The position numbers were made by a program, and so were the translations under genes. Shown piece by piece: positions 3,007 through 21,189 of a stretch of 64,000 nucleotides of DNA. Positions within the stretch are counted from its first letter, which is position 1, and every line of letters starts with the position of its first letter. This stretch comes from Cylindrospermum stagnale PCC 7417 (GTDB lineage: Bacteria; Cyanobacteriota; Cyanobacteriia; Cyanobacteriales; Nostocaceae), in the NCBI RefSeq assembly GCF_000317535.1, contig NC_019757.1, positions 6,898,501-6,962,500 of the forward strand, in the 5' to 3' direction. The notes under the pieces were generated by a model. The model ran no database searches, was not told the origin of the DNA, and was given only the letters and a program-made list of their open reading frames with translations.

Positions 3007-5259
3007 TTATTCAACCCTTTTTACTCTCCTCACACTTGTACCTTGAAATTTTTCAATTTTTACTTTGACAATATCTCCTATAAAAAGGGTAACTTCTTGT
3101 TTATTCACTTCTTCTTTTGATGGACAATCAGAACCTTTAATTTCATAAGTGATAGTAGTTTTTAATTTAGTTCTTCTACCATCTTGTACCGATTGCTTTT
3201 CAATGTTGGTTACAGTCCCTTCAATAATTTGACCTTCTGTAAACTCTAGGATAGGTAGAATTTCCTGAATCACCTGTAAAGGTGTGGGTAAAACTCTTCT
3301 TGCTTTATATTCATTGTGGTCATATCCAAGACGAGGCTTTTGTTCACGCTCAATTTCCATGTATCGTGTTTGTTCCAAATAATCTTGTGATGGATCTTCT
3401 TCCCAAGTTAATAAAGCTAACAACATTTTAATTCTGGGAATTTTATTAAATTGTCCAATTTTCGTGAGTTGAGGTTGAGTAAGTATATATTTCTCAAATT
3501 CATCTTTGTACTTAGATGCTTGTTGAACTGTTTCTGCAAGATTCCAGTTATTACCACTAAATAATTGAGCGTATCTATTTGTGCGTTGATTTAAATAAAG
3601 CTCATGGGTAATTTTAATTGCACCCATACCCAAAGGTTTACCCATACCCAACGATAGCCGATATTTATTGTCTTGAGCAATATCAAGTACCCACATTAAA
3701 GCACCCAGTTCAACATCACTCAAGTTTTCAAAATGAATAGTGAACTCAAAATTTACTCCTGGTTTAATTGGCTTTATTTGAGTAAGTTGAGTAGCTGAAG
3801 CTTCATCTGGTTTTAGATGTTTAATTTCTGGTTCACTCCCCTTGTGCCAATAAAGTTTATGACCACGAATGACAGTATCTTTAGTTGGCTCACTAGCATA
3901 ATGGTTCAGATTTATCTTGACAGCATTTGTATTTTCTGATTGCACTAAGTAGTGCTGAAATGTTGTCGGTTTAGGACTAGCAAGAATTTTAGGCGTGATT
4001 GGATAATTTTCTAGCCAGATATCATTATTATCTGTTTGACATTCCGCGTTGCTGATAAAAATTCTACCAGCGCGACTTTGTTGAATTCCTTGAGTTTGTT
4101 TTTCTGATCTGACAAAACCAAAAATTGCATCTGCAATATCAATAATTGAAGATTCCCGTAAATTTGCTGGAATAAAATCAACAGCAGATGCTGTCTTTAT
4201 ATGCCCTTTTGGATAATATGGAATACGGAAATTAGGACTTTGACCAAATAATTTTATAGATTGTCCTTGTTGATGTTGACAATAAAAGATAGCACGACCC
4301 TGTTTAAGTACACCCATTTCTGGATCAAATGGTGGTTCTTGCTTCTGAAAAGGTGTTAATGATTTTTTATAATCTTGAATGGCATCGTCATCAATTGGTA
4401 TTAATTCTGCATCAGGATTTGGTTCTCTAATCAGGCAATGATTTTTACGGTTTACTTCATCTGGCAGTCTTGTTGCACCTTCCAGCATATTGCCGCTAGT
4501 TAGTAAAACACCATTGTAATCATAATCCTGACTATTAGAGCTTATCTTTTGAGCAAATTTACGACCATTTTTAGTTTGTATATCCTCAAAACTTATATTA
4601 ATAAAATACTGAGGTTTATAATCTGATATATTTTCGATAGGAATATATCCAGAAATCCTAGCATTAATAACCGATTTCTCTTTGACCCAAACAAATGGAT
4701 AATTATCAATACTTTTGGCAGGACGTACAAACCATTTGTCCCCTTTTTGTTGAAAATAACCAGCTTTTACATTTTTACCCTGATTTCCTAAATACTTTAT
4801 ATATTCATCTTTAAGCGGGTCATCTTTATCAGCAGCTACCGCACGAAAGAAAAACTTTTGGGCATCAGAAACTTTGTCAATTTTGCTAAAACTGATTATT
4901 TCTATCAGCGTCCTGAACATTCCTCGTAAACTACTACCTGCAATTTCAGGTTTATTCGTCACTGGATTATAGAAAAAATCAGGATAATCACTAACTTCTC
5001 TTTCTTGTCTAAGTTGTTCTTGTACAAAATTAAATTGTTCTGGTGTTAGTCCACAGCGAATATATAGAGGTGAAGAAGTATTTAAATTGCATTGTATTCT
5101 ACCAGTATGTCTATCCTGATAGTAACGATCATTATCACGCAGCTTACAATTTTCCTCTAGTTCAGCTTTGACTATTTGGTCTGGAAGTTCCACAAAATTA
5201 TATGGTGCAACTGCTTTCTTATCTTGCGGTACATGGTGAATATGTTTGATAGTCATCAT
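3007..5259 (-). CDS. Type III CRISPR RAMP protein, TIGR03986 family
   Basis: 750 residues, the last gene of the CRISPR run. The RAMP fold is indicated by the N-terminal helix motif PEIAGSSLRGMFRTLIEI (about residues 106-123) and a glycine-rich loop LSLGMGKPLGMGAIKI (about 545-560). The last 80 residues (GQIIEGTVTNIEKQ ... GDIVKVKIEKFQG) look like a small OB/S1-type RNA-binding domain; that part is inference. Proteins of this family occur with csx10 and csx19 in subtype III-D loci, presumably as a backbone or accessory Cas7-like subunit binding crRNA. The start ATGATGACT overlaps the csx19 stop by four bases (ATGA), so translation is probably coupled. The exact position in the complex is not known from sequence. 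Confidence 0.8.
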   Translation of the reverse strand: MMTIKHIHHVPQDKKAVAPYNFVELPDQIVKAELEENCKLRDNDRYYQDRHTGRIQCNLNTSSPLYIRCGLTPEQFNFVQEQLRQEREVSDYPDFFYNPVTNKPEIAGSSLRGMFRTLIEIISFSKIDKVSDAQKFFFRAVAADKDDPLKDEYIKYLGNQGKNVKAGYFQQKGDKWFVRPAKSIDNYPFVWVKEKSVINARISGYIPIENISDYKPQYFINISFEDIQTKNGRKFAQKISSNSQDYDYNGVLLTSGNMLEGATRLPDEVNRKNHCLIREPNPDAELIPIDDDAIQDYKKSLTPFQKQEPPFDPEMGVLKQGRAIFYCQHQQGQSIKLFGQSPNFRIPYYPKGHIKTASAVDFIPANLRESSIIDIADAIFGFVRSEKQTQGIQQSRAGRIFISNAECQTDNNDIWLENYPITPKILASPKPTTFQHYLVQSENTNAVKINLNHYASEPTKDTVIRGHKLYWHKGSEPEIKHLKPDEASATQLTQIKPIKPGVNFEFTIHFENLSDVELGALMWVLDIAQDNKYRLSLGMGKPLGMGAIKITHELYLNQRTNRYAQLFSGNNWNLAETVQQASKYKDEFEKYILTQPQLTKIGQFNKIPRIKMLLALLTWEEDPSQDYLEQTRYMEIEREQKPRLGYDHNEYKARRVLPTPLQVIQEILPILEFTEGQIIEGTVTNIEKQSVQDGRRTKLKTTITYEIKGSDCPSKEEVNKQEVTLFIGDIVKVKIEKFQGTSVRRVKRVE

Positions 5260-5894
5260 TTAACTCCTGCTTTTGCTTTTAGTGATACAAGACGACTGAG
5301 AAAAATTCTGGCAATACCTGTTTCATCGTCGTATTTAATGTAGTGATTTATTACTAAACGGACTGGACGATAAAGCTTCTTTTTATCTGTTGGACTAAAA
5401 TAACTGCTTAAACTAGTTAAAGGAACAGCGTGTTTTAGCCCTTGGGAACCATCAGAAAGTAAAGTAAATCCATGCTTTTCACCATCCTCTCCATTTTTAC
5501 CTTTCTCTATTTGAGTTCCCCAAAGAATTTGTTCTTCATGAATATATTCTATTGATGGATTATCTTTGATAAGTCGTGCTTGCCAATTTTTATGAGATTT
5601 CCAAAGTAAAATTTCTCCGTTCTCTCCAAATATTCGACACTGTTGCAATGTGAGTAATCGAAGGTTAGCAAAATCAACAGCAAAATTATTTTTATGAAAA
5701 ACTATATCAGCAGTAATTATTTTATAATTTTCGTCTTCATCAAAATGTCCCCAAATTATTCCATCCTCAGCATAAGCCAAAAGATACTTAAATTGATATT
5801 CTTTAGCTTCTTTTTGCAACCAATTTATTAGAGTGCTTTGGTCATCGTCTCTAATCTCATCGACAGAGATAGTCTGACATAATTTTTGATTCAT
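5256..5894 (-). CDS. csx19: Type III-D CRISPR protein Csx19
   Basis: 212 residues, beginning MNQKLCQTISVDEI and carrying KYLLAYAEDGIIWGHFDED and a later ILWGTQIEKG segment. This pattern (a short alpha/beta protein with two GxxWGxxx stretches) matches my memory of TIGR03984/Csx19, a subunit found only in subtype III-D loci. Its ATG overlaps the stop of the double-RAMP gene (ATGA) and its stop overlaps the next gene in the same way. No catalytic motif is visible; Csx19 is thought to be structural in the effector complex. Confidence 0.8.
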   Translation of the reverse strand: MNQKLCQTISVDEIRDDDQSTLINWLQKEAKEYQFKYLLAYAEDGIIWGHFDEDENYKIITADIVFHKNNFAVDFANLRLLTLQQCRIFGENGEILLWKSHKNWQARLIKDNPSIEYIHEEQILWGTQIEKGKNGEDGEKHGFTLLSDGSQGLKHAVPLTSLSSYFSPTDKKKLYRPVRLVINHYIKYDDETGIARIFLSRLVSLKAKAGVK

Positions 5895-7345
5895 GCTACT
5901 ACCTGATTAACTATTTTATTTAAATCACCCACAAATTTTTCTAAATTATTCACATCACTAATTTGTAACTTGTCTTCCTCTTTAATGATTTGCCAATAAT
6001 CTTCACCGTTATCTGGTGTAAATCGTCTCATTTCTGCTTTAATTCCCTGTAATCTCCCTCTTCCGATGCTGCTTTCACCACCAATTGGTAAATCACTTGT
6101 CCATAAATCTTTTAGTAAAAGTAACAGTAAGCCAATTTCAGCATTATTCGGTTGACGTAATTCTAAATCCAAAGTAACTATTGTCTCCTTTCCGCCAAAT
6201 ATCGGTTGTTCGTCAAACAATGCACCATGTAATGCGCCACCTGTAAAGCGGTCGATTGCTATTCGATTTTGTACTAAAGGGATTGCTTGTTCAATTACAG
6301 TTTCATTTACCACTAAGCGACTTGATTGAGCATCTTGAATATTTTCTTCGAAAATACCAAATATGTCATAAATAAAAGTTGTTGAAATTCCCAGCGTTTT
6401 TACTATTTTCTCTGCTCGATGCCGCAAAACTCCCGTAAAACTTGTTCCTGGTAAAATTGATGCAACCTTACCATTACGGTGTGATTTTATATGTACTACA
6501 TCTGGTACGGTTTCTGTAGAAAATTGACCAGAACGAATTAGTAAAGAACCAATTAAGTTAAAAGTAGCTTTCAGATGAAACCGATGGCGTTGGTCTGATC
6601 TTATTTTTTCTTGAAAGATATCTACAATTTTACCTTCTATAGCTAAAATATCTTGAGTGTACTTCTCTTTCCAATCATCTCTGTCAAAAGTTAACCAAGC
6701 TAACCTATGTTTGTAATCATTCAAATCAAACTGCCAAATTTGCCATTTTTCAATATGACAACGACCAAATCCTCGGCGTTTTTTCATGCCAATATTAATT
6801 TCAGACTTTTCTAGCCCTTGTAAAGCAATAACCAAAGCTTCAAGTAGTTGATTTTTATTTTTTCCTTCTTCAATTAACAACTCAAAATAAAGAGGGAATT
6901 CGGTTCCTGCTGCCAAGAGTTCCAAATCGTACTTTGCCTGATTTTTTGCTGTCCCTGTTGCAATATCAATTCTTACTCCATCCCTGAGTTCTACGCGGGG
7001 AATTTCATTACTAATCGAGTCATGGATAATGAGAGGACTTTGTTCACCATCTTTATCTTTGCGACTTCCACCAAATAGATACGTAGATAAGTTGTCATTT
7101 TGATGTTTCTCATCTTGACCATAACCATATTGATACTCGTGTAAATAGTTCCGTAATGCACCAGCGATAGACGTACCTGTGAGAAGTGCTTTAGAACTAA
7201 TGCTGTCACGCAGTAACATTAAATCTGTAGACCCATCTGCATCACCATTACCCAAACAGGTTGGGGTATCTAATATTAGAGTTCCTGTGATGATAATGCG
7301 TTCAAGGATAATACGTTGGTTACGTTTTAAGCGTTTATTGCTCAT
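5891..7345 (-). CDS. Double Cas7 (Csm3-like) RAMP subunit
   Basis: 484 residues with two RAMP domains in tandem. Domain 1 (about 20-215) has TGTLILDTPTCLGNGDADG, LLTGTSIAGALRNYL and KKRRGFGRCHIEKW; domain 2 (about 255-460) has ATFNLIGSLLIRSG, ILPGTSFTGVLRHRAE and GGESSIGRGRLQGIK. Each therefore has the helix motif G(T)SxxGxLR and the glycine-rich loop of Cas7 proteins that line crRNA in type III complexes. In III-D variants fused Cas7 units are known. The start at 7345 is preferred because AAGGAGAAGG lies just upstream; an ATG at 7366 would place that site inside the gene. It overlaps the csx10 stop. Acidic residues in the domain 1 loop (GNGDADGSTD) could cut target RNA. Confidence 0.85.
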   Translation of the reverse strand: MSNKRLKRNQRIILERIIITGTLILDTPTCLGNGDADGSTDLMLLRDSISSKALLTGTSIAGALRNYLHEYQYGYGQDEKHQNDNLSTYLFGGSRKDKDGEQSPLIIHDSISNEIPRVELRDGVRIDIATGTAKNQAKYDLELLAAGTEFPLYFELLIEEGKNKNQLLEALVIALQGLEKSEINIGMKKRRGFGRCHIEKWQIWQFDLNDYKHRLAWLTFDRDDWKEKYTQDILAIEGKIVDIFQEKIRSDQRHRFHLKATFNLIGSLLIRSGQFSTETVPDVVHIKSHRNGKVASILPGTSFTGVLRHRAEKIVKTLGISTTFIYDIFGIFEENIQDAQSSRLVVNETVIEQAIPLVQNRIAIDRFTGGALHGALFDEQPIFGGKETIVTLDLELRQPNNAEIGLLLLLLKDLWTSDLPIGGESSIGRGRLQGIKAEMRRFTPDNGEDYWQIIKEEDKLQISDVNNLEKFVGDLNKIVNQVVA

Positions 7346-8906
7346 CAGCCTTCTCCTTAGTTGCATTTTTAGCTACTGCCATAATTAGACGTAGAGTATA
7401 TTCCATAGCTAGAGAGTCACTTAAACTGCACTTTTCGTCACCAATTAGAATGTCTTGTATTTCAGTTCCCATCCATTTTCTTGGAGAATCTAACCACTGC
7501 TTAATTGTTTTTTTTAAAGATTGGTTTCCTAATTTAGTTCCTTCATATTGGCTACGGGCATTTTGAGTCAGTTGACTGAAAAGACTATCCAGGGGTTCAC
7601 GACTGTTTTTATCTAATGCTTGTCTCGCAACTATTATTAATCGCGATAACTGGCTATTAGTCATTTGATTTACTTGGAGTCTATGCAGTTCAATTTGTGT
7701 TAGGAGTAATTGTTCTAATTTTTGCCGTAAGATTCTTTCTCCGATTTCGCGTGCTAACTCACAAGATTCTGGAGTTTTAAATTGAGGTTTTGTCAAGGTT
7801 ACTTTAATTTGTGGCTTTTTAGCTGTAATTTTTTTTTCTGTACACCAGTTAACAGCTACCCTACCAAAACCTTCTTCTCTCCTTTCTCCTATACCTTCTG
7901 TTTCTAAAATATTTATTTTCTCTGGATTTATTTGAGCATTTTCATATACAAAGACGCTTCCTGCTTTAACTGCTAGTACTTGTGGTATAGGTAAACCCCA
8001 TTTGCGGTTAAAACCTCCTATAAAAATGCTATCCATGTAAGCACTTCTTGGCTTATCTAGGTATATTTCTAGTACTTCAGAAAGTAAGTTAGTTGGCGGT
8101 ATCGCAGCATATTGACCCCATTCATCGCGTAGAATTAAATCGCTGAGGAGGGTAACTTTCAGAATATTATCACTAATCCTATTTTCTGAAGGAATCCCGA
8201 CTTCATTCCAAGAATCACAGGAGTTTACTTGTGAAATTTCCACATGACCATAACCAGCACTTCTAGAACCCCCTAACCAGATATCTGAGGGAGATAGTAA
8301 GTTGCAGATAATCTCTTCATTGGCTTCGTCACACAAGATAACTCCTTGAAAAGTTTGTCCTGCATCTATAGCATCGTAGCGAAAGATTTCACCTTCTGAT
8401 TCTGTGGAACGACCTTTGGAGCGATCGCGCAAGTTGTGAATGTTAATTCTGCGAGCAACGTGATATAGTGTAGTGTATCCGCTTTCTTCAACCCAAAAAG
8501 CTTCTCCTACTGTCTTCGGTGAATCTAGTTTAGGTCTAGCTATACTAAAGTCATAAAATATCATCCTACTATCAGATTCATTGTTAAATTCCACACCTTT
8601 TTCTTTTCGCCAAGAAAGTAATGTAGGATATGTCCTTTTTCCTTCTTGACTACTGATGTATGCATTTAAGTAACGAGTTGAATCGTCAAAAAACAAATCC
8701 CTAATTTTTGGATCAATTAAGATATCAGAATTTTGCAATCCATAACTATTCAGATACCGACTAATCAATGCACCCCGAATCATGCTTCCAGGAATGTATG
8801 AATAGGAGACATCACTGTTTGGATCACCTTGAAATGAAGTCGCTAAAATAGGTTGTTTAGTTCTTAGTAAAAAGGTAATTGCTTTCATTTTTCTATCTTC
8901 TTTCAT
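7335..8906 (-). CDS. csx10: CRISPR RAMP protein Csx10 (Cas5-like, subtype III-D)
   Basis: 523 residues in the frame from ATG 8906; a second ATG at 8888 (MKAITFLLRTKQP) follows a GAAGA site and is the likelier start. Motifs: YSYIPGSMIRGALISRYL (about residue 36), the glycine loop WLGGSRSAGYGHVEIS near 210, and a second G-rich segment IGERREEGFGRVAVNW near 345. The C-terminal third is helical and may serve the Cas11-like role; that is inference. Csx10 is the Cas5-type subunit that caps the crRNA 5' handle in III-D complexes. It touches the preceding RAMP gene by one base and overlaps the following gene. Confidence 0.85.
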   Translation of the reverse strand: MKEDRKMKAITFLLRTKQPILATSFQGDPNSDVSYSYIPGSMIRGALISRYLNSYGLQNSDILIDPKIRDLFFDDSTRYLNAYISSQEGKRTYPTLLSWRKEKGVEFNNESDSRMIFYDFSIARPKLDSPKTVGEAFWVEESGYTTLYHVARRINIHNLRDRSKGRSTESEGEIFRYDAIDAGQTFQGVILCDEANEEIICNLLSPSDIWLGGSRSAGYGHVEISQVNSCDSWNEVGIPSENRISDNILKVTLLSDLILRDEWGQYAAIPPTNLLSEVLEIYLDKPRSAYMDSIFIGGFNRKWGLPIPQVLAVKAGSVFVYENAQINPEKINILETEGIGERREEGFGRVAVNWCTEKKITAKKPQIKVTLTKPQFKTPESCELAREIGERILRQKLEQLLLTQIELHRLQVNQMTNSQLSRLIIVARQALDKNSREPLDSLFSQLTQNARSQYEGTKLGNQSLKKTIKQWLDSPRKWMGTEIQDILIGDEKCSLSDSLAMEYTLRLIMAVAKNATKEKADEQ

Positions 8907-9556
8907 TAGATAAAATGCTGTATAAAATTATCTATAATCTCTTGGTTAGTATAGTCAAATAATTGGCACTGCACATGGCCACGTCCGCGATTTCTACCAC
9001 TTCCTACCCGCCTTAAAGCTAAAGTACCAACTGATAACAACGTTAAAGCATCATCATTGGGTTGAACGTCAAAACTTAGATGAGCAGTAAATTTGAGTTC
9101 GCGCAGTATTACACGCGATGATCGCAAACTTTTCCTATCTGGCGTTCCTGTTTTCATATCAATTGCAGTTTGGCAGCGAATAGTTGTTAAGGATTCTAAA
9201 ATCTCGACTTTAGTTAGGTTGTTATCTGTTTTCATCTGATACGCTATGACTTTCCTCAAATCTTCTGGTAAACAAGCATCCCCAATGTGCATATATGAAT
9301 TAGTATTGAGGATACTTCCTGGCTTACCGAATAAGTGACAAGCAACTTGTTCCCAATGTTGGCGACTATTCTCAGGTAATACAGCTATCAAGTTATCGCA
9401 TTCTTCACTCAATAAACCTTTTAAAGTACGTCCTCGCAAATAAGGAAATCCATAAGCGTCATGTTCAACTTCTTGGTCAACTAAACCTGCTACCCCATCT
9501 CCACGTCCAAAGGTAGTATCACTCAATAGTTTAATTTTCAGTTTGTAGACAATCAC
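8906..9556 (-). CDS. Cas7/Csm3-like RAMP subunit
   Basis: 216 residues starting MIVYKLKIKLLSDTTFGRGDGVAG, with GFPYLRGRTLKGLLSEE (the RAMP helix motif) and the C-terminal glycine loop RRVGSGRNRGRGHVQCQL. This is a single-domain Cas7-type backbone subunit. The start is a GTG at 9556, supported by AAGGAG about eight bases upstream; it overlaps the 3' end of cas10 by 26 bases. Acidic residues in TFGRGDGVAG and DQEVEHD are placed where the RNase aspartate of Csm3 sits, but I cannot confirm catalysis. Confidence 0.8.
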   Translation of the reverse strand: MIVYKLKIKLLSDTTFGRGDGVAGLVDQEVEHDAYGFPYLRGRTLKGLLSEECDNLIAVLPENSRQHWEQVACHLFGKPGSILNTNSYMHIGDACLPEDLRKVIAYQMKTDNNLTKVEILESLTTIRCQTAIDMKTGTPDRKSLRSSRVILRELKFTAHLSFDVQPNDDALTLLSVGTLALRRVGSGRNRGRGHVQCQLFDYTNQEIIDNFIQHFI

Positions 9557-11183
9557 CTGATTCTCCTTTATTTAAGGGAAAGTAAAATTCCATTGCTTCT
9601 ATAGCATCAAAGTAACCACATCGTAGTAGTTCATTTTCCGAATCACTATCGCTGACCCACCCACTTGTTTGAATTTCATCAGATACTTCTTTAACTGGTG
9701 GTAAAGTATCTATCCTATAGGCTTTGAGAAACTGTCGAGTTGCTTCTTGTCCGTCGCGTAGCTTTTCTCGTAATCCAATAACTTTATTACGACGGCCTTT
9801 CCATTCTTTATCTTCATTAAAATTTTTAACTAAATTTCTGAAATTAGACCATGTGCGCCATTGATTGGTTTCATTTTGCATCATGACAGGTCGCATTGTT
9901 AAATCACCTTCTGCAACTTGATATTCTCGTTGACGAATATCACCAACAGAACCAAATAAACCACTAGAGGCAATATGCCAGTCAATAGCCGAAAATTCCT
10001 TGTCTTCTTGTTTACGTAAAAATTTCTTGGCATTACTGCATAAAGCCTCACTCATTTCATAGGCTCTAGCAAAAGGATAATGGGATTTGACAATACATAC
10101 ACCAGCGCAAGCAGTTAAAACTTTGAAATCAGCAACTTTCTGTTCTTGAAATGCTTCTAGATAAATTGCTGCTAACTCTAAACCTAATCTACCATCACAT
10201 ACAAAAGTAACGTCATCGCCGCCATACACCAGAGGACGGAAAGGCAGATAATTATCTTTGATGGAAAACTTACCCATAAGTTCTCCATTTTCAATAGAGT
10301 TGGCAAGGGTTTGGACTACTGTTTGCATTGCTGATAATCCAGCTTTTTTAACAGTTTTAGAAAGATTACGCATACAATCGATATAGCCTCGATTTGGATC
10401 TTGTGGATTGCATTTCTTCCCTTCTTCACCACAAGCTTCAAATCTTTTACCCATACTATTTCCATCGGCATGAATTACAGCATAGTAACTGCTTTCATGT
10501 TGACTTCTACCTAAATGATCCATCCGATAGGGAAATTGAAGATTTTTTTCTATTAAGATATCACCAAAATATTTCTTAAGAGCTTTATTTGCTGGTTCTC
10601 CATGTTTTGAAGAAACAGCTTTTAATTTTGCTTGAGTTTGCGAAGAAATAAGATAAATATCTTCTTCATCTGCTTGGATATAATCTGCGCTTGTATTTAC
10701 AGCAACTAACTGAGTTGAGTTACAGGATGCAGTTATTCCTAATCCTAGTAATGGCACGGAAGGAACTCTGGCTCTTTTCTGTTGTTCAAGTTCATTATCC
10801 ATCAGATTTTGAACTACATCATATAGTAATTCATTCCAGTCAAATTCCTTGTGTGCGGCTACAAGATTTATTCCAGGCGCATATTCTAAAATGTGTCTGC
10901 TTAGATGACGAGTAAACCGCTTTGCATCCTCCATTGATTTAAATAACAGCATGGCATTTCCACCACCTGCATAAACCAATTCTGCGATTAAGCCACTATT
11001 GGTTATAGGTTCATTTTGCCTATGTTTGGGAACTCCTAATTCTTCTAATTTATCTTTTACCCAATTACCAGTTGCCTGCTCTACGAGATAAGAAGCGCCA
11101 ATATTTTCTCGTAAGCGATTACTGGTGAAAATATAGGACTGAATGCCAGTAGAATCTAGTATTGTTACAATATACTTACTCAT
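9531..11183 (-). CDS. cas10: Cas10 (Cmr2/Csm1-like) without HD domain
   Basis: 550 residues, clearly shorter than HD-bearing Cas10 proteins. It begins directly with the first palm-like domain (YIVTILDSTGIQSYIF, NRLRENIGASYLVE, VYAGGGNAMLLF). The second palm carries PLVYGGDDVTFVCDG near residue 325, the intact GGDD motif that makes cyclic oligoadenylate when target RNA is bound. No HD motif is present at the N-terminus and none is encoded separately nearby, so single-stranded DNA cleavage is not expected. The ATG overlaps the stop of the CARF nuclease gene (ATGA), and AAGGTAGGTGG gives a good ribosome site. In the III-D complex it is the large subunit. Confidence 0.9.
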   Translation of the reverse strand: MSKYIVTILDSTGIQSYIFTSNRLRENIGASYLVEQATGNWVKDKLEELGVPKHRQNEPITNSGLIAELVYAGGGNAMLLFKSMEDAKRFTRHLSRHILEYAPGINLVAAHKEFDWNELLYDVVQNLMDNELEQQKRARVPSVPLLGLGITASCNSTQLVAVNTSADYIQADEEDIYLISSQTQAKLKAVSSKHGEPANKALKKYFGDILIEKNLQFPYRMDHLGRSQHESSYYAVIHADGNSMGKRFEACGEEGKKCNPQDPNRGYIDCMRNLSKTVKKAGLSAMQTVVQTLANSIENGELMGKFSIKDNYLPFRPLVYGGDDVTFVCDGRLGLELAAIYLEAFQEQKVADFKVLTACAGVCIVKSHYPFARAYEMSEALCSNAKKFLRKQEDKEFSAIDWHIASSGLFGSVGDIRQREYQVAEGDLTMRPVMMQNETNQWRTWSNFRNLVKNFNEDKEWKGRRNKVIGLREKLRDGQEATRQFLKAYRIDTLPPVKEVSDEIQTSGWVSDSDSENELLRCGYFDAIEAMEFYFPLNKGESGDCLQTEN

Positions 11184-12454
11184 CCACCTACCTTCTGATT
11201 ATTGAGCTTAATCCAGGTTTCAATACCGCCAGCAAGATTAGCTAAGTCTTCTCTTCCAAATACGCGAATTTTTTTGTCACGTATAGAAAATTTTATTTCA
11301 TCTTCAATATATCCTGGTGTGTCAGAACAACAAACTAAAGCTGTTCGTGCTTCATCACCTCCTAATTGCCTAGCACGTAAATGTGCTTCAAATAGTTTTT
11401 GCTTACACAACTTATGAGATTTACTTGTTGTGCATGATATAGCAAATAGCTGATACCCTATTATGAAAGCAACATCAAACTCAAAACGCGGCTCGTCTTC
11501 CCATGTTATTTTATTTATTCTTTTATATTCAGGGTCTTTAATATAAAAAGACATACCGCTTTGTTTGATATTAAAGTCATATTCAATTTTCTTGATTTGC
11601 TGTAATACATAACTTTCTAGCCATGTGCCATCTAACCATTCACAGACTTGTGTTAGGCTGCTAAACCCCCTTTTTTGAGTTATGTCAAGGCGAAGCTCAT
11701 CGGTAGATGCATATAAATCGGTACGAAGTATGTCTCTAATTTTTGGAGGTAAATATTTAATCGTAATACCACGTGTTTGTATTTGTTTGAGGTCTTCTTC
11801 TCTTTTCCAAAACTCGCCTTTTTTTGTTAAGGAATGAAGTTCTTCTTTCAGCCATTTCTTCCATGATTCTGCTAAATTTATATTTGAATAAATTTCAACA
11901 AAATTTTCTGCTATTGTGTCTGGCAAAAATGCCTGAAAAAGAGGGGGTTTATGATCAAGCCAATAATTATTGTTATGTAGCTTGAATAGTTCTTTGAGAG
12001 AAAGTTCAAGCGGAACATCAAATTCAAGAGGTTGGTTGTTTTCTCTATCAATACATATTTTTAGGCTTCGTGGATCAAGATAGCTAAAAAAAGCATCAGG
12101 TCTTTTTTCATAAATTGCTCTATAGGCATGAACGGCCATTGCCTTTGTACCACCTGTATAGTTTAGTCCAACGCTGTCATTCTTCGGTACTTTTTTTTGA
12201 ACTCGGTCGCAAATATGATAAGCATTTGATTCATATTTAACTAAATCAATAGGAACAATATTCACTTTTATGTGATTTTGATTTTTTAATCCTTCTTCAA
12301 TACATTTTTTTTGCTCTTTTGTAGAATGTGTAAACACTAGCTAAACTGTGCCATCATTTTCTAGTAAAGTTCTGGCAGCTATATAATTAGGTAAAGGATT
12401 TTCACCAACCAGTAAAAAAAGATGCTTAACTTTGTAATCGTTTAGGTTACTCAT
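11180..12454 (-). pseudogene. Can2/Card1-like CARF nuclease split by in-frame TAG
   Basis: The frame from ATG 12454 reads MSNLNDYKVKHLFLLVGEN, then codons through DGTV, then TAG at 12343-12341, then LVFTHSTKEQ and 385 further residues to the stop at 11180. A TAC to TAG change explains it: DGTVYLVFTH would complete the second CARF strand. The CARF part keeps LNYTGGTKAMAVHAYR; the C-terminal part has FEFDVAFIIGYQLFAISCTTSK and an ARQLGGDEARTALVCC helix-strand unit of the DUF1887/PD-(D/E)XK type. Such proteins bind cyclic oligoadenylate and cut nucleic acid. Restart at GTG 12337 would lose the first CARF strand. Readthrough, suppression or a sequencing error are the alternatives. It precedes cas10 with a four-base overlap. 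Confidence 0.75.
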
Positions 12455-12518: not shown

Positions 12519-13436
12519 CTACTCCCCACACAACCCCACCAACAACCGCGCCAAAGCCTGTACCACTAAGCGTTCTGCAACATTCTCCCCTCGCTGCAAA
12601 CGGTGAACGCTTCCCTGAAGAGGGGACATTTCTGAATGTATCACGTCATGTGTTCCGTGATAATCACTAAAAATGATAGCTACTATTTGTAAATTCAACG
12701 ACTCACATAATTCTTGCCAAGGTGCTATTTCAGTTTTATTTTTCACCAAAATCACTGCGTGAGTGGCTTCAGCCATAATCAAACGGTTTTCTGGGGAAAT
12801 TTTGCCACCTACATCAAAGACAAATATTGGTGTATTAATTCCCTTGACTTCCTGCGCTTTCAGTTGCGCGAATTCAGGGGTAAATCCGGCTTTGTATTCC
12901 GCTTTTAATGTCTGCGCTAAATCTAAATCGCGGCGTGCAGTTTCCCCATACCAAGAACCATCTCCATCTGGACAACCTGAGATGATATAAGACTCTGGTG
13001 CATGGGAAATCTGCAATAACGCCTGTTTTAAACCATCCCGAAAACAAGTTTTACCTGTATTCGCAAATCCACACAGCACAACTTTGATATTTGACTGCTG
13101 CTTTGTCCGGACTACATCCAAAATATCCCCAACTTTGTACTCAGGGTTATTACTAATAGTGACTACGTACCTATCCAGTCCTTTATCGCCAATCTTGGGG
13201 TCAAAAAATGCGATCGCATCATACAACTTCGATAATTTAGCCGCTAAAACTTGACTAACTAGCACAGATGTGCGTCCGTTGATTTTAATCAGTGTACCAC
13301 CTGGTAATTCCCCGGAAGCAATCATCTCATTTAGCCTTGTGTCTGCATCACGGACAATTTGATCACCTGTGGCTAGGGTAGCGCCAAATCCTACTTTTAA
13401 GATGTCACCCTCTAAATTTATCTGGTAAGTACTCAT
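12519..13436 (-). CDS. csx3: Csx3 domain fused to P-loop ATPase
   Basis: 305 residues. Residues 1-105 are a Csx3 domain (MSTYQINLEGDILKVGFG, TLIKINGRTS, AIAFFDPKIG, NPEYKVGDILD). A P-loop NTPase follows, with Walker A CGFANTGKTCF near residue 125 and a Walker B-like FVFDVGGK near 215. Csx3 proteins degrade cyclic tetra-adenylate (Crn3 ring nuclease), and fusions to AAA-type ATPases are known in cyanobacteria. Here the histidines of the partner gene (AHxxAH and ITHNP) are replaced: AAKLSK and ISNNP, with an extra GDKGLDR. The domain is therefore probably non-catalytic, or acts as a sensor for the ATPase. It lies 64 bases upstream of the CARF nuclease frame and no strong ribosome site is visible. 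Confidence 0.85.
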   Translation of the reverse strand: MSTYQINLEGDILKVGFGATLATGDQIVRDADTRLNEMIASGELPGGTLIKINGRTSVLVSQVLAAKLSKLYDAIAFFDPKIGDKGLDRYVVTISNNPEYKVGDILDVVRTKQQSNIKVVLCGFANTGKTCFRDGLKQALLQISHAPESYIISGCPDGDGSWYGETARRDLDLAQTLKAEYKAGFTPEFAQLKAQEVKGINTPIFVFDVGGKISPENRLIMAEATHAVILVKNKTEIAPWQELCESLNLQIVAIIFSDYHGTHDVIHSEMSPLQGSVHRLQRGENVAERLVVQALARLLVGLCGE

Positions 13437-13644
13437 AAATTAAGGCGCTGGATAAAAACCAATGAGGGCAACAACCTTGCAGCTTTATTGCTTAACCGTC
13501 TTTTATTTTTTCGTCAGATGAAAATCTAAAAGTCTCTGAAATCAAGACTTTTATTTTTCTTTGAAAAAAGTAAATTAATTTTGGCGAGACAGGCAAAAGT
13601 TTTGTTTATTTTCTCTCTCCAGAGTAATAAAAGAGGTGATGAAT

Positions 13645-13950
13645 TTAATCAAGCAAGTCCCCTAATTTATACGCTGGATTATGAGTAATAGAAACCACAT
13701 ATTTACCTAATTTTGGGTCAAAAAAGGCGATCGCACCATATATATGAGCAAGCTTATGGGCCAAGACAAATGCTACGGGGATAGAAACAGGCCCATTAAT
13801 CTTCAATAGCTGGCCACCAGCCAGTTCTCCCGACTGGGCCATTTCTTCCAACCGTGCCGCCGCATCCTTCACAATTTGGTCATTCTGCGCCGGTTCGCCA
13901 AAATTAATCCGTAATATTCCGTCTTTTAACTCGATTTTGTAAGTACTCAT
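13645..13950 (-). CDS. csx3: Standalone Csx3 ring nuclease
   Basis: 101 residues from ATG 13950 (MSTYKIELKDGILRINFGEP); GGAAG lies about nine bases upstream. A longer frame to 14010 exists, but the extra 20 residues have no counterpart in the paralogue at 12519-13436. Motifs: LLKINGPVSIPV, VLAHKLAHIYG, AIAFFDPKLG, YVVSITHNPAYKLGDLLD. The histidine spacing (H-x3-H, then Asp nine residues on, then His twelve on) fits the Csx3 active site as I recall it from Archaeoglobus Csx3 (H57, H60, D69, H80). It is predicted to linearise cA4 and switch signalling off. It ends exactly where the fused paralogue continues into its ATPase, which suggests duplication. It is divergent from the WYL gene. Confidence 0.85.
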   Translation of the reverse strand: MSTYKIELKDGILRINFGEPAQNDQIVKDAAARLEEMAQSGELAGGQLLKINGPVSIPVAFVLAHKLAHIYGAIAFFDPKLGKYVVSITHNPAYKLGDLLD

Positions 13951-14185: not shown

Positions 14186-15577
14186 GTGTCCGAGCAAATT
14201 TTTTTAGATGTACCCCAAGTAGAATTGCTGCAATGGTTAGCACGCGGTAGCCTTAAACAAAACCTGCTGCGGGCAATTCGTTTGTGGGTATGGTTGCGTT
14301 AGCTTTGCTCACCGAAGGTATCGCTATATGGTTCGGATGAAACCCGCTTGGTGCTTGACGATTCCTTTACTTTTGCCGATTGGAGAGATGCTTTCTTTGA
14401 TCAAAATCATCCTAGAGGAGAAGCCATCCCTGACTTGCATGATTCCAATTGCCTTTGTGCCAAAACTACCGCTGCATGGTTGTTTGATGCCAAAACGGGA
14501 TTGAATGAGTCAGAATGGAAGCGATCGCTTCTTACTCATGTTAATATCTCCCAAAAATTAGACGCACTACTACAGCAGCGGTTGTTTGGCGTAACTCGTC
14601 GTTCTTTGCAAGCAGATTTAGAAATTCTGGAAAAACTAGGTTGGCTGGAATATCGACAGCACAAATATCACCGCGTCAAAAAGTTACCATCTCGTCCCAT
14701 CTCTGCAAATCCAGCATTAACCTCTACCAATCTCAATAGTTATGAACTGAATTTTCTCAATCAAGAAGACTTAGCAAGCATTGCCCAAAATCATTCCCAG
14801 GAAATCTGCGGTGTCCGGCGGTTCTTTTTCAAACTTGATTATGTCAGCCCCCGCACCACTATAGATCAAGTAGAGGACTGGCAACACGAATTGAGAGAAA
14901 TTTGGGGACAAACTCCAGTCCCACCCATCAAACTAACTTACAACAGCGCCAGGTTAGGAAATGTTGTCGAATCTTTAGTTTACCCAGTCTGCATCTACTA
15001 TGTACAACGTGCAGTTTACCTGTGTGCTTTTGGGCAAAGTCCTGATAGAAAAACTGATTGGTATAATTATCGTCTTGACAGAATTCAACAAATTACCCCC
15101 ATCAAGTGGACAAATACTGCCATTCCCCAAATTCTACAACAGCGCTACAATCAGGCAACTTTACCGAATCCAGAAGAAATTGAAGGGCAATTATCTAAAG
15201 CTTGGGGTTTTGATTTTTACTTACAGTCTCAACTGATGCTTTTGAGATTTGACCGTCAGTATCATGACCGCTATATTCAGCATACCTTTCGCCATGAAAC
15301 TTTTGCAGCAATTTCCTATCAGCAAGCACAACGTCTGATTCGACAGCACACACCGCAACTGTCACAACAGCAGGCATTATTGAAAGTTCTTGCAGCCCGT
15401 TCTCACGAAGATGCCTACTACCGGGTGAACTATCGACATGGGGATAATAATGTAATGATGCGTTTACGGGCATGGCGTCCAAAGGCTGAAGTGCTTAGTC
15501 CTTGGGATTTGCGGCAAAGTATTACAGCTGATGTCGCTGCCGAATTTCAGCTTTATCAAGATTCAGAAAAACTATGA
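14186..15577 (+). pseudogene. TIGR03985-type WYL regulator with in-frame TAG and insertion
   Basis: From GTG 14186 the frame reads SEQIFLDVPQVELLQWLARG and continues to LWVWLR, then TAG at 14300-14302, then LCSPKVSLYGSDETRLVLDD and 400 more residues. The C-terminal half has the WYL-type region (NVVESLVYPVCIYYVQRAVYLCAFG). This matches my memory of the CRISPR-associated TIGR03985 family, found beside cyanobacterial type III arrays. In relatives the first helices should run on from WVWLR to LYGSDE, so 14300-14323 looks inserted. Expression could restart at TTG 14348, giving 409 residues without the N-terminal helices. It lies upstream of the array in the same direction and is presumably a regulator of the locus. 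Confidence 0.7.
14300..14323. repeat. Likely small dispersed element inserted in WYL gene
   Basis: The 24 bases starting TAGCTTTGC and ending AGGTATCG interrupt an otherwise continuous reading frame without shifting it. The flanks GCG...TCGC and the internal partial palindrome resemble the very small mobile repeats (21-27 bp) described from Nostoc. If the native protein has a serine before LYG, the insertion is 21 bases instead. The boundaries are inferred from protein context only. Confidence 0.5.
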
Positions 15578-15874: not shown

Positions 15875-17168
15875 CTTTCCGCTAACTAATTCCCCGCAAG
15901 GGGACTGAAACGAATGATTCTAGAAGGGAATACGTCGCCGTACTCTGCACTTTCCGCTAACTAATTCCCCGCAAGGGGACTGAAACGCCTCAATCCGCCT
16001 TCTAGCCGTTTGAGGCGATCGCGCCTTTCCGCTAACTAATTCCCCGCAAGGGGACTGAAACTTTGGAGCAATTGTAGCGATCGCGGATTTAACAGATTGC
16101 CTTTCCGCTAACTAATTCCCCGCAAGGGGACTGAAACTTATTAGTGAGGATGAAAACGACTGGGCGATCGCCTTTCCGCTAACTAATTCCCCGCAAGGGG
16201 ACTGAAACATTAATAGCGCCTACGGTGGCAGGATTTATCGTTACGCTTTCCGCTAACTAATTCCCCGCAAGGGGACTGAAACCTAAAGCAGCTTTTTTAC
16301 CTTTGGATACAGCATAACTTTCCGCTAACTAATTCCCCGCAAGGGGACTGAAACAGATTAACCCTAGTAGATTGGTCGAGGCGCAGGCGATCTTTCCGCT
16401 AACTAATTCCCCGCAAGGGGACTGAAACAATCTATAGCTACTGCGAAGGCTGAGAATATGGACTTTCCGCTAACTAATTCCCCGCAAGGGGACTGAAACA
16501 TTCTGATTCCACTTCAATAGCTAGTGCTGGCTTGGCCCTTTCCGCTAACTAATTCCCCGCAAGGGGACTGAAACAATATTGGGGAAAAAGTTAGGGACTT
16601 AGTCAACTTAGAACTTTCCGCTAACTAATTCCCCGCAAGGGGACTGAAACCAGCAGAGAGTCTCATCGGGTGCTACTGAGCTTAAAGGCTTTCCGCTAAC
16701 TAATTCCCCGCAAGGGGACTGAAACTTTAGCTATACGGTCAAGGCATATCTGATGATAGCTTTCCGCTAACTAATTCCCCGCAAGGGGACTGAAACTCCT
16801 TTTTTGGTCAGCAGTCGCCCCCTGCCCATACTCTTTCCGCTAACTAATTCCCCGCAAGGGGACTGAAACAGCCATCATCTTTCACAAGGTGAATGGGATT
16901 GCTGGTGCTTTCCGCTAACTACTTCCCCGCAAGGGGACTGAAACATTTTATATGTTGTTTAATAGCAGCATACAAAAAAGCTTTAGCTTTCCGCTAACTA
17001 CTTCCCCGCAAGGGGACTGAAACATGTAAATCTAGAGTAGGGTGCGATACCCACCCACCTTTCCGCTAACTACTTCCCCGCAAGGGGACTGAAACTAATC
17101 TGACTGCCACTCTGGGCAGACTTCATCAAGTCTTTCCGCTAACTAATTCCCCGCAAGGGGACTGAAAC
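15875..17168 (+). CRISPR. CRISPR array, 18 repeats of 37 bp, 17 spacers
   Basis: Repeats start at 15875, 15950, 16025, 16101, 16172, 16246, 16318, 16392, 16463, 16538, 16614, 16689, 16760, 16833, 16908, 16987, 17059 and 17132. Each begins CTTTCCGCTAACTA and ends GGGGACTGAAAC. The centre forms a five-base-pair hairpin TCCCC-GCAA-GGGGA with a GNRA-type loop, and the last eight bases ACTGAAAC would be the crRNA 5' handle. Spacers are 34-42 bases. The repeats at 16908, 16987 and 17059 carry C instead of A at position 15; the last repeat is canonical. Spacers 2, 3 and 4 contain GCGATCGC. The array lies between the WYL gene and cas6 and should serve the III-D complex. Confidence 0.98.
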
Positions 17169-17763: not shown

Positions 17764-18915
17764 ATGCCAAGAGCAGCTGCATCCACCAGTCGCAAAGCCA
17801 AGGCAAAATCAGAGTCTTTTTCCTCTATGCCCACATTGGCAGATGACACAGAGCTAGTAGGATTGGTTTTTGACCTTCAGCCAACTACTTCCAGTTCCCT
17901 TTACTCTCAATACACAATTGGACTCCATGCTTGGTTTCTTGACCAAGTGCGGCAATTTAACCCAGACCTTTCCGCCTATCTCCATGATGGGGAATCAGAA
18001 AAACCCTTTAATATTTCTTCACTAGAAGGTCAACTCCTCCCCAGTGGGAGACAATTGCAACTGCAAGCAAACCAAATTTATCGCTGGCACGTTAACGGAC
18101 TTTCTCAAAGAGTGGTGCAATTTCTCAGTCAATGGTTAAGCCAATTGCCAAAAACCCTAGACTTAAAAGATGCTCCGCTGCTGATAACAAAGGTGAGTGT
18201 TGCCCATCCAGCTACCACTTATGCTCAACTGTTGAACTCAGCTACAGCAAAACATTCTAACGTTAGTCTCAGCTTTGTTTCACCTACTAGCTTTCGTCGC
18301 AAAGGTCATCATTTCCCGCTTCCCGTTCCGGTTAATCTTTTCCACAGCTACTTGCGACGCTGGAATGATTTTTCGGGAATGGCTGTAGAACAAGAGGCAT
18401 TTCTCAACTGGATTGATGAAGGGGTGATCATCCATCAGCACCGCTTGGAATCTGTGAAAGTGGCAGCAGGTAAACGGGGTTCAGTGACTGGGTTTACAGG
18501 GACAGTTTCCTGTGGTTTGAGTAAAACGGCTTTGGCTAATACTGAATTTACTCAGTTGTTTTATGCTTTGGTAGAACTCGCTCCCTATTGTGGAACGGGA
18601 CACAAAACCACCTTTGGACTAGGGCAAACTCGCTTAGACTTGGTAAAACCGGAAGTTGCTACATCCAGTCAGTTGCTGACAAATATGCTGGGAGAACGAA
18701 TTGATCAACTGACGGCGCTATTTACAGCACAACGAAAACGGACAGGTGGCGATCGCACTGATAAAATTGCTGCAACATGGGCAACCATCCTCGCACGGCG
18801 GGATATGGGCGAATCATTGCAGGTGATAGCCGATGATTTAGAGATGCCTTACACCACAGTCAAAACTTACGCCAAATTAGCCCGTCGCGCCTTAAAGCCG
18901 GAAAATATTTCGTAG
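17764..18915 (+). CDS. cas6: CRISPR RNA endoribonuclease Cas6
   Basis: 383 residues. Cas6 is a double-ferredoxin-fold RAMP that cuts the array transcript within each repeat, leaving the eight-base ACTGAAAC handle. Seen here: TELVGLVFDLQP, a helix YTIGLHAWFLDQV with a candidate catalytic His, LSFVSPTSFRRKGHHFPLPVP, and the C-terminal glycine-rich loop CGTGHKTTFGLGQTRL near residue 280. About 80 residues follow the G-loop, ending in what looks like a helix-turn-helix (MGESLQVIADDLEMPYTTV); this is beyond the usual Cas6 end. It is plus strand, downstream of the array, and not in the effector operon. No strong ribosome site precedes the ATG. Confidence 0.85.
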   Translation: MPRAAASTSRKAKAKSESFSSMPTLADDTELVGLVFDLQPTTSSSLYSQYTIGLHAWFLDQVRQFNPDLSAYLHDGESEKPFNISSLEGQLLPSGRQLQLQANQIYRWHVNGLSQRVVQFLSQWLSQLPKTLDLKDAPLLITKVSVAHPATTYAQLLNSATAKHSNVSLSFVSPTSFRRKGHHFPLPVPVNLFHSYLRRWNDFSGMAVEQEAFLNWIDEGVIIHQHRLESVKVAAGKRGSVTGFTGTVSCGLSKTALANTEFTQLFYALVELAPYCGTGHKTTFGLGQTRLDLVKPEVATSSQLLTNMLGERIDQLTALFTAQRKRTGGDRTDKIAATWATILARRDMGESLQVIADDLEMPYTTVKTYAKLARRALKPENIS

Positions 18916-19941: not shown

Positions 19942-20090
19942 GTGAACTACCTACACTGACCTTTCGGTACAGTGTAGGCTTCCCAATTCAACAGGGATTG
20001 CCTCGACCTTCGTAGATTTTTTACGTCCCGAAGACTTTGGTCTTACATCCCCTCCAAGGGCAGAAGAGCTAGTCCCTAACTCCAAAATTC
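19942..20090 (-). ncRNA. Predicted omega RNA at tnpB right end
   Basis: In IS605 elements the RNA that guides TnpB covers the 3' end of tnpB and the right end, with the guide starting at the element boundary. If the boundary is TTCAC (ending at 19942), the guide would begin TCTCAACTAACAACC, just upstream of the epimerase gene. Extent inferred by analogy. Confidence 0.35.
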
Positions 20091-21189
20091 GCAATCCTTC
20101 ATTTCTAATATTTATTGCAGCGTTGATGTCTCTATCATGCTGTTTCTGGCAGTGAGGGCAATCTACAAATCTTACACCCAATGAATCATAACCTTTTTGC
20201 AGCATTGGGATTGGTAGTAGAGTCTCGCTACAAAGTTGAGAAGATGGAAAGAAACGACCTATTTCAATATAGGTATGACCAAATTTCTCGGCTTTGTATT
20301 TGAGCATGGTTTGAAACATCCCCCATCCCTGGTCACTGATAGCTTTTGCTAAGTTATGGTTCTTCACCATATTTTTAACTGCTAAATCTTCTACACAAAT
20401 AACTTGGTTTTCGTATGCTATTTTGCGAGATAGCTTGTGCAGAAAATCCTCTCTAACTCTAGCTATTTTGCTAGAGACTTTTGCAACTAAGCGTTTGGCT
20501 TTACGACGTTTGTTAGAAGTTTTATCTGTCTTCTTAGCTAACTTTTTCTGCTGGCGTTTTCTATTCTTTTCTAACTTTGCTAATTGTTTTTTGGGTAGGT
20601 CATATTTTGAGCCTTCTGAAGTTATAGCAAAATTCTTTAATCCTAAGTCAACTCCAATAGCGTCTCTAATTGCCACTACTGGATTATCAGCTTGATTAAA
20701 AAGAATAGAAGCGTAGTATCTACCGTCTGCATTTTTGGATATTGTTACAGTAGTGAATTTTGCATCAGGTAGTTCTTTGTGAAACACAGTTTTCATTAAT
20801 CCCAAACTACCGGGAAACTTAACAACAGAGTCCTGTGGTATTAGTTTTACGTTTTGGGGATACTGAATTGATTGCAAACCATGTTTAGATTTAAAGTTAG
20901 GGAATTTAGCACGCCCCTCAAAGAAATTAACAAACGCGCTAGAAAGGTTGAATGTTACTCGTTGCAATACTTGACTGTACGCAAGTCCTAACCATTCATA
21001 TTCTTTTTTTAAAAGAGGAAGCAACTTATCCATAGCTGCTTTAGAAAGTCCTTTTCCTGTTTCTTTATAAGCGGTAGTCGTGGCATTAAGCATATAATTC
21101 CACAACCATCGAGTGTTACCGAAACACTGAGATAGATAAGACTCTTGCTCGTCAGTTGGATAAATTCTCACTTTAATCGCTCTATACAT
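19951..21189 (-). CDS. tnpB: TnpB, RNA-guided nuclease of IS200/IS605 type
   Basis: 412 residues. The N-terminus MYRAIKVRIYPTDEQESYL is the TnpB wedge/helix-turn-helix start. RuvC residues are visible: GVDLGLKNFAIT (first Asp), VICVEDLAVKNMV (Glu) and HDRDINAAINI (last Asp). A lysine-rich helical stretch lies between the first two. The zinc finger is unusual: CPHC is intact, but the first pair reads SSQLCSETLLP, with only one Cys where most TnpBs have CxxC. TnpB cuts DNA next to a target-adjacent motif under omega RNA guidance and helps the element persist. The C-terminus HCTERSV is encoded by the right-end hairpin. Confidence 0.9.
   Translation of the reverse strand: MYRAIKVRIYPTDEQESYLSQCFGNTRWLWNYMLNATTTAYKETGKGLSKAAMDKLLPLLKKEYEWLGLAYSQVLQRVTFNLSSAFVNFFEGRAKFPNFKSKHGLQSIQYPQNVKLIPQDSVVKFPGSLGLMKTVFHKELPDAKFTTVTISKNADGRYYASILFNQADNPVVAIRDAIGVDLGLKNFAITSEGSKYDLPKKQLAKLEKNRKRQQKKLAKKTDKTSNKRRKAKRLVAKVSSKIARVREDFLHKLSRKIAYENQVICVEDLAVKNMVKNHNLAKAISDQGWGMFQTMLKYKAEKFGHTYIEIGRFFPSSQLCSETLLPIPMLQKGYDSLGVRFVDCPHCQKQHDRDINAAINIRNEGLRILELGTSSSALGGDVRPKSSGRKKSTKVEAIPVELGSLHCTERSV

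Follow-up and report, generated by a model that had tools for sequence, protein, structure and literature searches.

Why should a CRISPR locus encode two copies of one ring-nuclease domain side by side, one with its catalytic histidines and the other, fused to an NTPase, with none of them? The question is raised by a locus of Cylindrospermum stagnale PCC 7417, which lies within the 64,000-nucleotide stretch of contig NC_019757.1 that we analysed (hereafter the window). Csx3-NTPase fusions themselves have already been published. In the parts of the papers available to us, Csx3'/Crn3 fusions have the same architecture as the window fusion and are called common in cyanobacteria. Their C-terminal domain is labelled 'kinase/transferase' (PMC7371418), 'AAA-ATPase' (PMC12409355) or, for Slr7080, 'AAA+ ATPase' (PMC9676260), and in those same parts its function was called unknown in 2020 and 2025 (PMC7371418, PMC12409355). 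The literature searched, seen in part, contained no account of a tandem active/dead pair, of a complementary double-Csx3 protein, of NTPases that lack Csx3 but adjoin csx3, or of the partner rule described below, and an earlier description elsewhere is possible.

A type III-D locus with two different Csx3 copies

By its NCBIfam and Pfam matches (TIGR03986, csx19, csx7-like, csx10, cas10 and a Card1-like CARF nuclease), the window locus is a type III-D CRISPR system. Its features, in window coordinates, are:

3007-9556, minus strand: type III-D effector genes TIGR03986, csx19, csx7-like, csx10 and RAMP (NCBIfam, some matches below the curated cut-off)
9531-11183, minus strand: cas10, with GGDD in the translation (Pfam Cas10-Cmr2_palm2)
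11180-12337, minus strand: Card1-like CARF nuclease, frame interrupted near the N terminus (Pfam CARF_Card1, Card1_endonuc)
12519-13436, minus strand: csx3-NTPase fusion, 305 aa, catalytic His lost (open reading frame and column signature)
12522-13100, minus strand: C-terminal P-loop NTPase of the fusion, modelled as SIMIBI-type, residues 113-305, motifs GFANTGKT, PDGDGSW and DVGGK
13110-13436, minus strand: N-terminal degenerate Csx3 domain of the fusion, residues 1-109 (identity to the standalone copy and AF2 model)
13227-13241, minus strand: AKLSK of the fusion, the matching place where the His pair is lost (sequence and alignment)
13645-13950, minus strand: standalone csx3, 101 aa, catalytic set intact, HHDKH (Pfam PF09620)
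13744-13758, minus strand: HKLAH of standalone csx3, putative metal-site His pair equivalent to H57 and H60 (sequence and profile alignment)
14348-15577, plus strand: TIGR03985 CRISPR-associated protein, divergent to the csx3 pair (NCBIfam, E 1.8e-98)
15875-17168, no strand: CRISPR array, 18 repeats of 37 nt
17764-18915, plus strand: cas6 (Pfam PF10040, 74.8 bits)

The likely source of the cyclic messenger is cas10. The frame of the Card1-like nuclease starts with an ATG at 12452-12454 and meets an in-frame TAG at 12341-12343 (minus strand) after 37 codons, and a relative in another locus of our set (L117) is uninterrupted at this place. The Card1-like protein, the sole CARF effector recognised at the window locus, may be truncated. 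Past the cas6 side lies an IS605-type OrfB/TnpB gene (19951-21189, minus strand; Pfam OrfB_IS605, Cas12f1-like_TNB). The annotation of Nostoc sp. ATCC 53789 shares the gene order TIGR03985, csx3, csx3-fusion, CARF protein and cas genes, and the closest fusions to the window fusion are from Cylindrospermum.

The original prediction placed tandem csx3 genes at 12519-13950 and read AHKLAH, FFDPK and ITHNP in the standalone copy against AAKLSK, FFDPK and ISNNP in the fusion; both open reading frames are present as located and the motifs are as quoted. The fusion sits 208 bases downstream of the standalone gene on the minus strand, and an alternative TTG start would extend the latter to 14010 (the 101 aa count from the ATG). 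In Archaeoglobus fulgidus (Af) Csx3, as far as the source was available, H57, H60, D69, R71 and H80 matter, and the face bearing D69 and R71 makes most of the contacts to cA4 (PMC7371418). At these five columns the window standalone has H, H, D, K and H and the fusion A, K, D, K and N, with all three catalytic His gone, the ligand-face Asp (D79 of the fused copy) kept, and Lys at the place of R71 in both. The two domains are ~57-59% identical to each other.

Similarity to characterised Csx3 is low at the level of sequence. The standalone protein reaches 23.6 bits against Pfam PF09620 (cut-off 21) and only 23.4 against TIGR02579 (cut-off 55.4), and its best PDB matches, which are Af Csx3, are weak (E 0.063); the fused Csx3 copy by itself matches neither a Pfam nor an NCBIfam model. 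The standalone protein nevertheless belongs to the same domain family as Csx3/Crn3 of A. fulgidus (PDB 3wzi, 6yud), keeping the equivalents of H57, H60, D69 and H80. The spacing of its residues, said to fit Archaeoglobus Csx3, fits inexactly: H57 and H60 are three apart in the Af motif AHKYHH (HxxH), whereas the window's clade has HxxxH, four apart. What holds is the place of the second His, which a profile comparison aligns on H60, and since both lie 9 residues before the Asp, it is likely the H60 equivalent.

A survey of Csx3-linked NTPases

To place the window pair we compiled Csx3-linked NTPases from three overlapping genome samples. At the level of the phylum 386 genomes were searched, 50 had a match and 60 stretches of matches were read; for the order the figures were 388 genomes, 128 with a match and 48 stretches; for the class, searched with a second profile, 388 genomes, 93 with a match, and 30 loci plus 32 stretches. 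A search of genome contigs contributed the best 80 of 124 confirmed loci. With identical NTPase domains collapsed and seven rows set aside as broken or truncated, the resulting table, which covers the matches listed and read, holds 197 distinct NTPases: 110 of 113 rows from the window's clade (W) and 87 of 91 from the canonical crn3 clade (E). Dropped from W were L163 (contig edge), L133 (broken frame) and L157 (two tandem fusions; L226 is the same contig), and from E L299 (contig edge), L242 (two pieces) and L298 (broken). A standalone csx3 was counted as a partner when on the same strand and, in E, within 1000 bases; upstream position was no criterion. Gaps were measured between stop-to-stop reading frames, not start codons. 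The word intact refers to the three His only, and two E rows counted as intact carry Glu at D69.

Fused Csx3 domains beside a second Csx3 have usually lost catalytic histidines

The original prediction called for fusions to be aligned and His loss compared with the presence of a neighbouring standalone csx3. With W and E pooled, at least one catalytic His is lost in 66 of 71 single fusions that adjoin a standalone csx3, as opposed to 10 of 89 without one, where absence refers to the stretch read (2.4-11.5 kb upstream of single fusions in W, 0.5-9.4 kb in E). The comparison holds within each clade: 46/51 with a partner against 6/25 without in W (Fisher 1.1e-8, kinship ignored), and 20/20 against 4/64 in E (Fisher 9.9e-16, kinship ignored). 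All three His are present in 79 of the 89 unpartnered fusions, and His plus Asp in 77. The partners themselves have all three His in 82 of 85 cases (W 63/64, E 19/21), the W exception being C-terminally truncated and the two E exceptions having Tyr or Arg at the H60 column. All 85 lie upstream of their fusion. Within E loci the difference is visible by eye, with IDRLAA, VNLCRA or IERLSS in the fused copy where the partner has VHECHP. Five partnered fusions, all W, are fully intact (L110, L129, L130, L139, L158). Some genomes scored as having no partner (G157, G172) carry csx3-length matches on other contigs.

The partner rule is more general than the window and recurs in two deep clades. The table rules out that the window fusion is a lone decayed copy in a family that otherwise keeps its histidines. 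It is also ruled out that the pair is a recent local duplicate: 63 of 67 csx3-only reading frames of the set form one clade apart from the fused domains (SH-aLRT 97), in a tree of 110 columns in which many forks are without resolution.

The statistics are limited because independent origins are few. A joint tree of the NTPases implies ~5 changes in partner presence and ~12 in His loss. Independent pairs differing in His loss gave a mean of 2.0 in the expected direction, 0.0 in the opposite one and 5.0 with no difference; those differing in partner gave 1.7, 0.1 and 2.2, and with this tree the test cannot reach 0.05 in either direction. A Pagel-type test, run from one starting point and sensitive to singular events, favours dependence (LR 21.4, p 2.6e-4), and its fit leaves the order of partner gain and His loss undecided. 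CRISPR subtype is a possible confounder; in our first set of 87 rows, a csx10-like gene (III-D) is found near 24/45 degenerate partnered W fusions and a cmr4-like gene (III-B) near 12/19 intact unpartnered ones. Because the rule spans the family, if with few independent origins, the His loss in the window looks unlike chance. It gives the Csx3-fused domain a testable logic, in which a second Csx3 next door goes with a fused one that is usually His-less, and it predicts that even fusions reaching the ring-nuclease model can be dead (L068, exactly at the TIGR02579 cut-off).

The degenerate domain is conserved, and its ligand face is kept in W

The degenerate fused Csx3 domain is under purifying selection, with a summed dN/dS of 0.18 (18 close pairs), the same as for its NTPase (0.18, 17 pairs) and twice that of the standalone copies (0.09). 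In all 45 degenerate partnered W copies profiled, the Asp, Pro and Lys of the DPK motif never vary, nor do several Gly, Ile and Tyr positions, while most of the His have gone. Asp69 and Lys/Arg71 are kept in 46/46 degenerate partnered W fusions (with Lys at 71), and in 19 of these 46 the His pair has given way to an acidic/basic pair four residues apart. The W single fusions show 21 different degenerate signatures at the His columns, and His-less copies are spread over many genera. Retention of the ligand face is a feature of W and not general, since among degenerate partnered E copies D69 is kept in only 5/20 (K/R71 in 9/20).

The fused NTPase models as a SIMIBI-class protein

The second half of the fusion models as a SIMIBI-class, MinD/ParA-like NTPase, which differs from the published labels of kinase/transferase or AAA in the parts of those papers available. 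The top Foldseek rows are mostly SRP, GPN, MeaB, Get3, MinD and NifH, with APS kinase and PFKFB also among them; in the VIA-align comparison 48 of 50 rows are SIMIBI-class by name, the P-loop Rossmann-like fold being nearest to MinD/ParA/NifH/SRP. Among the proteins scanned, no Pfam or NCBIfam model exceeds its cut-off for the NTPase domain. As for the AAA+ label, the window protein has no such Pfam match, and AAA models match at two other loci of the set (L068, L066) only below cut-off. Walker A is present in all 197 NTPases; the window protein lacks the deviant KGGxGK form of MinD/ParA/NifH.

Doubles, Csx3-less NTPases and loci lacking a complete histidine set

Two further arrangements link an NTPase to Csx3. 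In 23 proteins (21 W, 2 E) two Csx3 domains stand in one chain, and in 17 of the 21 W doubles the losses are complementary: domain 1 lacks H80 but has H57/H60, and domain 2 lacks H57 but has H60/H80. Of the four other W doubles, two read HHYQT+HHDKH and one AHDKH+HHDKH, and L083 has none of its His left. L083 and the two E doubles (L069, L307) have lost the catalytic His in both domains and keep their NTPase motifs. The natural doubles offer single-chain versions for structural work; an AF2 model of one had a pTM of 0.53, with low confidence on domain packing. At 13 W loci and 1 E locus, an NTPase without any Csx3 domain stands beside an intact csx3, separated by -7 to 60 bases from stop to stop.

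Taken over the table, a complete His set is present within a single Csx3 domain, either in cis or in the neighbouring gene, for 164 of the 197 NTPases, only across two domains of one chain for 17, and neither in cis nor next door for 16. The latter comprise six unpartnered W singles (five from Synechocystis-type genomes, and L156), four unpartnered E singles with one or two His lost, the three doubles named above, and three pairs with a damaged partner (L084, L249, L257). In L249 and L257 the standalone partner has lost H60 (to Tyr and Arg) and adjoins a fully degenerate fusion; these are possible candidates for wholly non-cutting pairs.

Several loci fall outside these classes. Fifteen further csx3-only reading frames of the tree set belong to loci without a complete fusion. 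In Cyanosarcina radialis (L157) two csx3-NTPase fusions stand in tandem, the first with HHDKH in a broken frame, the second complete with YADKE. At L043:9742-10293 an intact standalone csx3 is followed by a short NTPase remnant, and the genome of L033/L070 has a truncated fused csx3 and, on another contig, an NTPase fragment.

What the paired arrangement may do

The split of roles foreseen in the original prediction holds in its first half: one ring nuclease and one non-cutting copy, a division of catalytic roles between standalone and fused Csx3 that is well supported by comparison. The second half, a non-cutting ligand sensor that drives the ATPase, sits poorly with the 79 of 89 unpartnered fusions that keep their His, with D69 in 5/20 degenerate E copies, and with the 14 NTPases without a Csx3 domain. 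The reading that we favour, though we consider it no better than evenly balanced, is that the two subunits form a module that clears the signal in type III CRISPR, with an active Csx3 held on a nucleotide-dependent switch by a pseudo-ring-nuclease. Binding and cutting of cA4 would fall to the standalone Csx3 as the ring nuclease. The fused copy would be folded and no longer catalytic alone, and would pair or stack with the active Csx3, thereby tethering it to the MinD/ParA-like NTPase. The NTPase, dimerising in response to nucleotide, and the Csx3 dimers, stacking in response to cA4, might then control each other, a coupling suggested by fold class only: ATP might license cleavage, or cA4 might switch the NTPase for as long as the active subunit leaves the signal undestroyed. 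The partner rule points to ring nucleases that are heteromeric and, in CRISPR signalling, to a switch of the MinD/ParA type.

The structure of Af Csx3, as described in the available part of the source, bears on how such a pair might work: one face of the dimer bears D69 and the other H60, two dimers hold cA4 between them, with an active site that spans both, and mixing the inactive H60A and D69A variants restores cleavage (PMC7371418). Split half-sites are mechanistically possible because that mixture regains activity. It is possible, and fits equally well in W, that a composite site with the Asp face from the fusion and the His face from the partner would still cut cA4. Such a half-site cannot be general because the dead E copies have mostly lost the Asp face too, and for E a tether is the likelier role of the dead copy.

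The fused Csx3 might instead be a stand-alone, non-cutting cA4 sensor that turns on the NTPase, a new kind of cOA output, with the standalone copy merely clearing cA4, as originally proposed. All 46 degenerate partnered W fusions keep Asp69 and Lys71, which lie on the face responsible for most contacts to cA4 in the available account of the Af protein (PMC7371418), and cA4-driven stacking activates fused effectors in other systems, according to the part of the source available (PMC13148439). The Synechocystis lineage, including slr7080, has lost two or three His, has no adjoining partner and keeps Walker A, so that the NTPase seems useful without cutting; such His-less lineages suggest a use beyond cA4 cleavage and keep the sensor reading alive. 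We consider it unlikely all the same, given that unpartnered fusions so often retain three His (79/89), that degenerate E copies keep D69 in 5/20 and K/R71 in 9/20, and that Csx3-less NTPases adjoin intact csx3. Drift is still less probable: under relaxed constraint after duplication, redundant fused catalysis would be lost and a structural N-terminal domain remain, with no new role. The 21 signatures among W singles, the loss of residues from both faces in most degenerate E copies and the complete absence of the domain from 14 NTPases are what drift would leave. Against it, the dead domain and its NTPase have the same dN/dS (if twice the standalone value), DPK stays invariant in 45/45 W copies along with several Gly, Ile and Tyr though most of the His have gone, 19/46 carry an acidic-basic pair, four residues apart, in place of the His pair, and His-less copies persist over many genera.

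A dead fused copy that acts as a cA4 sponge or buffer, loaded or unloaded by the NTPase as with some Csx15, is in our judgement very improbable. Non-enzymatic, filament-forming members of Csx15 that sequester cA4 do exist (PMC13148439, seen in part), and H60A Csx3 turned colloidal with cA4, which its authors read as fibres (PMC7371418, seen in part). Loss of the His face should, however, hinder stacking of fused copies on each other, an active nuclease is apparently encoded next door, and degenerate E copies have mostly lost the Asp face. Csx15 resembles Csx3 in having enzymatic and non-enzymatic members and in holding cA4 between stacked dimers; it differs in its CARF fold, and the part of its description available mentions no NTPase or active/dead pair (PMC13148439).

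In a broader and tentative proposal, which we think doubtful if somewhat less so than the sensor reading, the Csx3-NTPases would be an undescribed cOA-responsive switch, with cA4-nucleated stacking toggling a MinD/ParA-like nucleotide-sandwich NTPase. The dead arm would serve as sensor or tether, an active Csx3 next door or an intact domain in cis would be the built-in timer, and an NTPase output of the slr7080 type would persist with no ring nuclease adjoining.

Fusions of the Synechocystis type

The gene slr7080 itself (L172:9001-9933) is carried by pSYSA of Synechocystis PCC 6803. It reads QPDKR at the five columns, with the equivalents of H57, H60 and H80 lost, and has no adjoining partner. 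In the part of the source available, Slr7080 is described as a putative Csx3/Crn3 ring-nuclease domain protein, and deletion of its gene is stated, citing Shah et al. 2019, to be without effect on plasmid defence (PMC9676260). The logic of the partner rule leads us to predict that Slr7080 does not cut cA4. Another genome of the set (G585) carries two His-less fusions of the Synechocystis type (L221, L222), on separate contigs.
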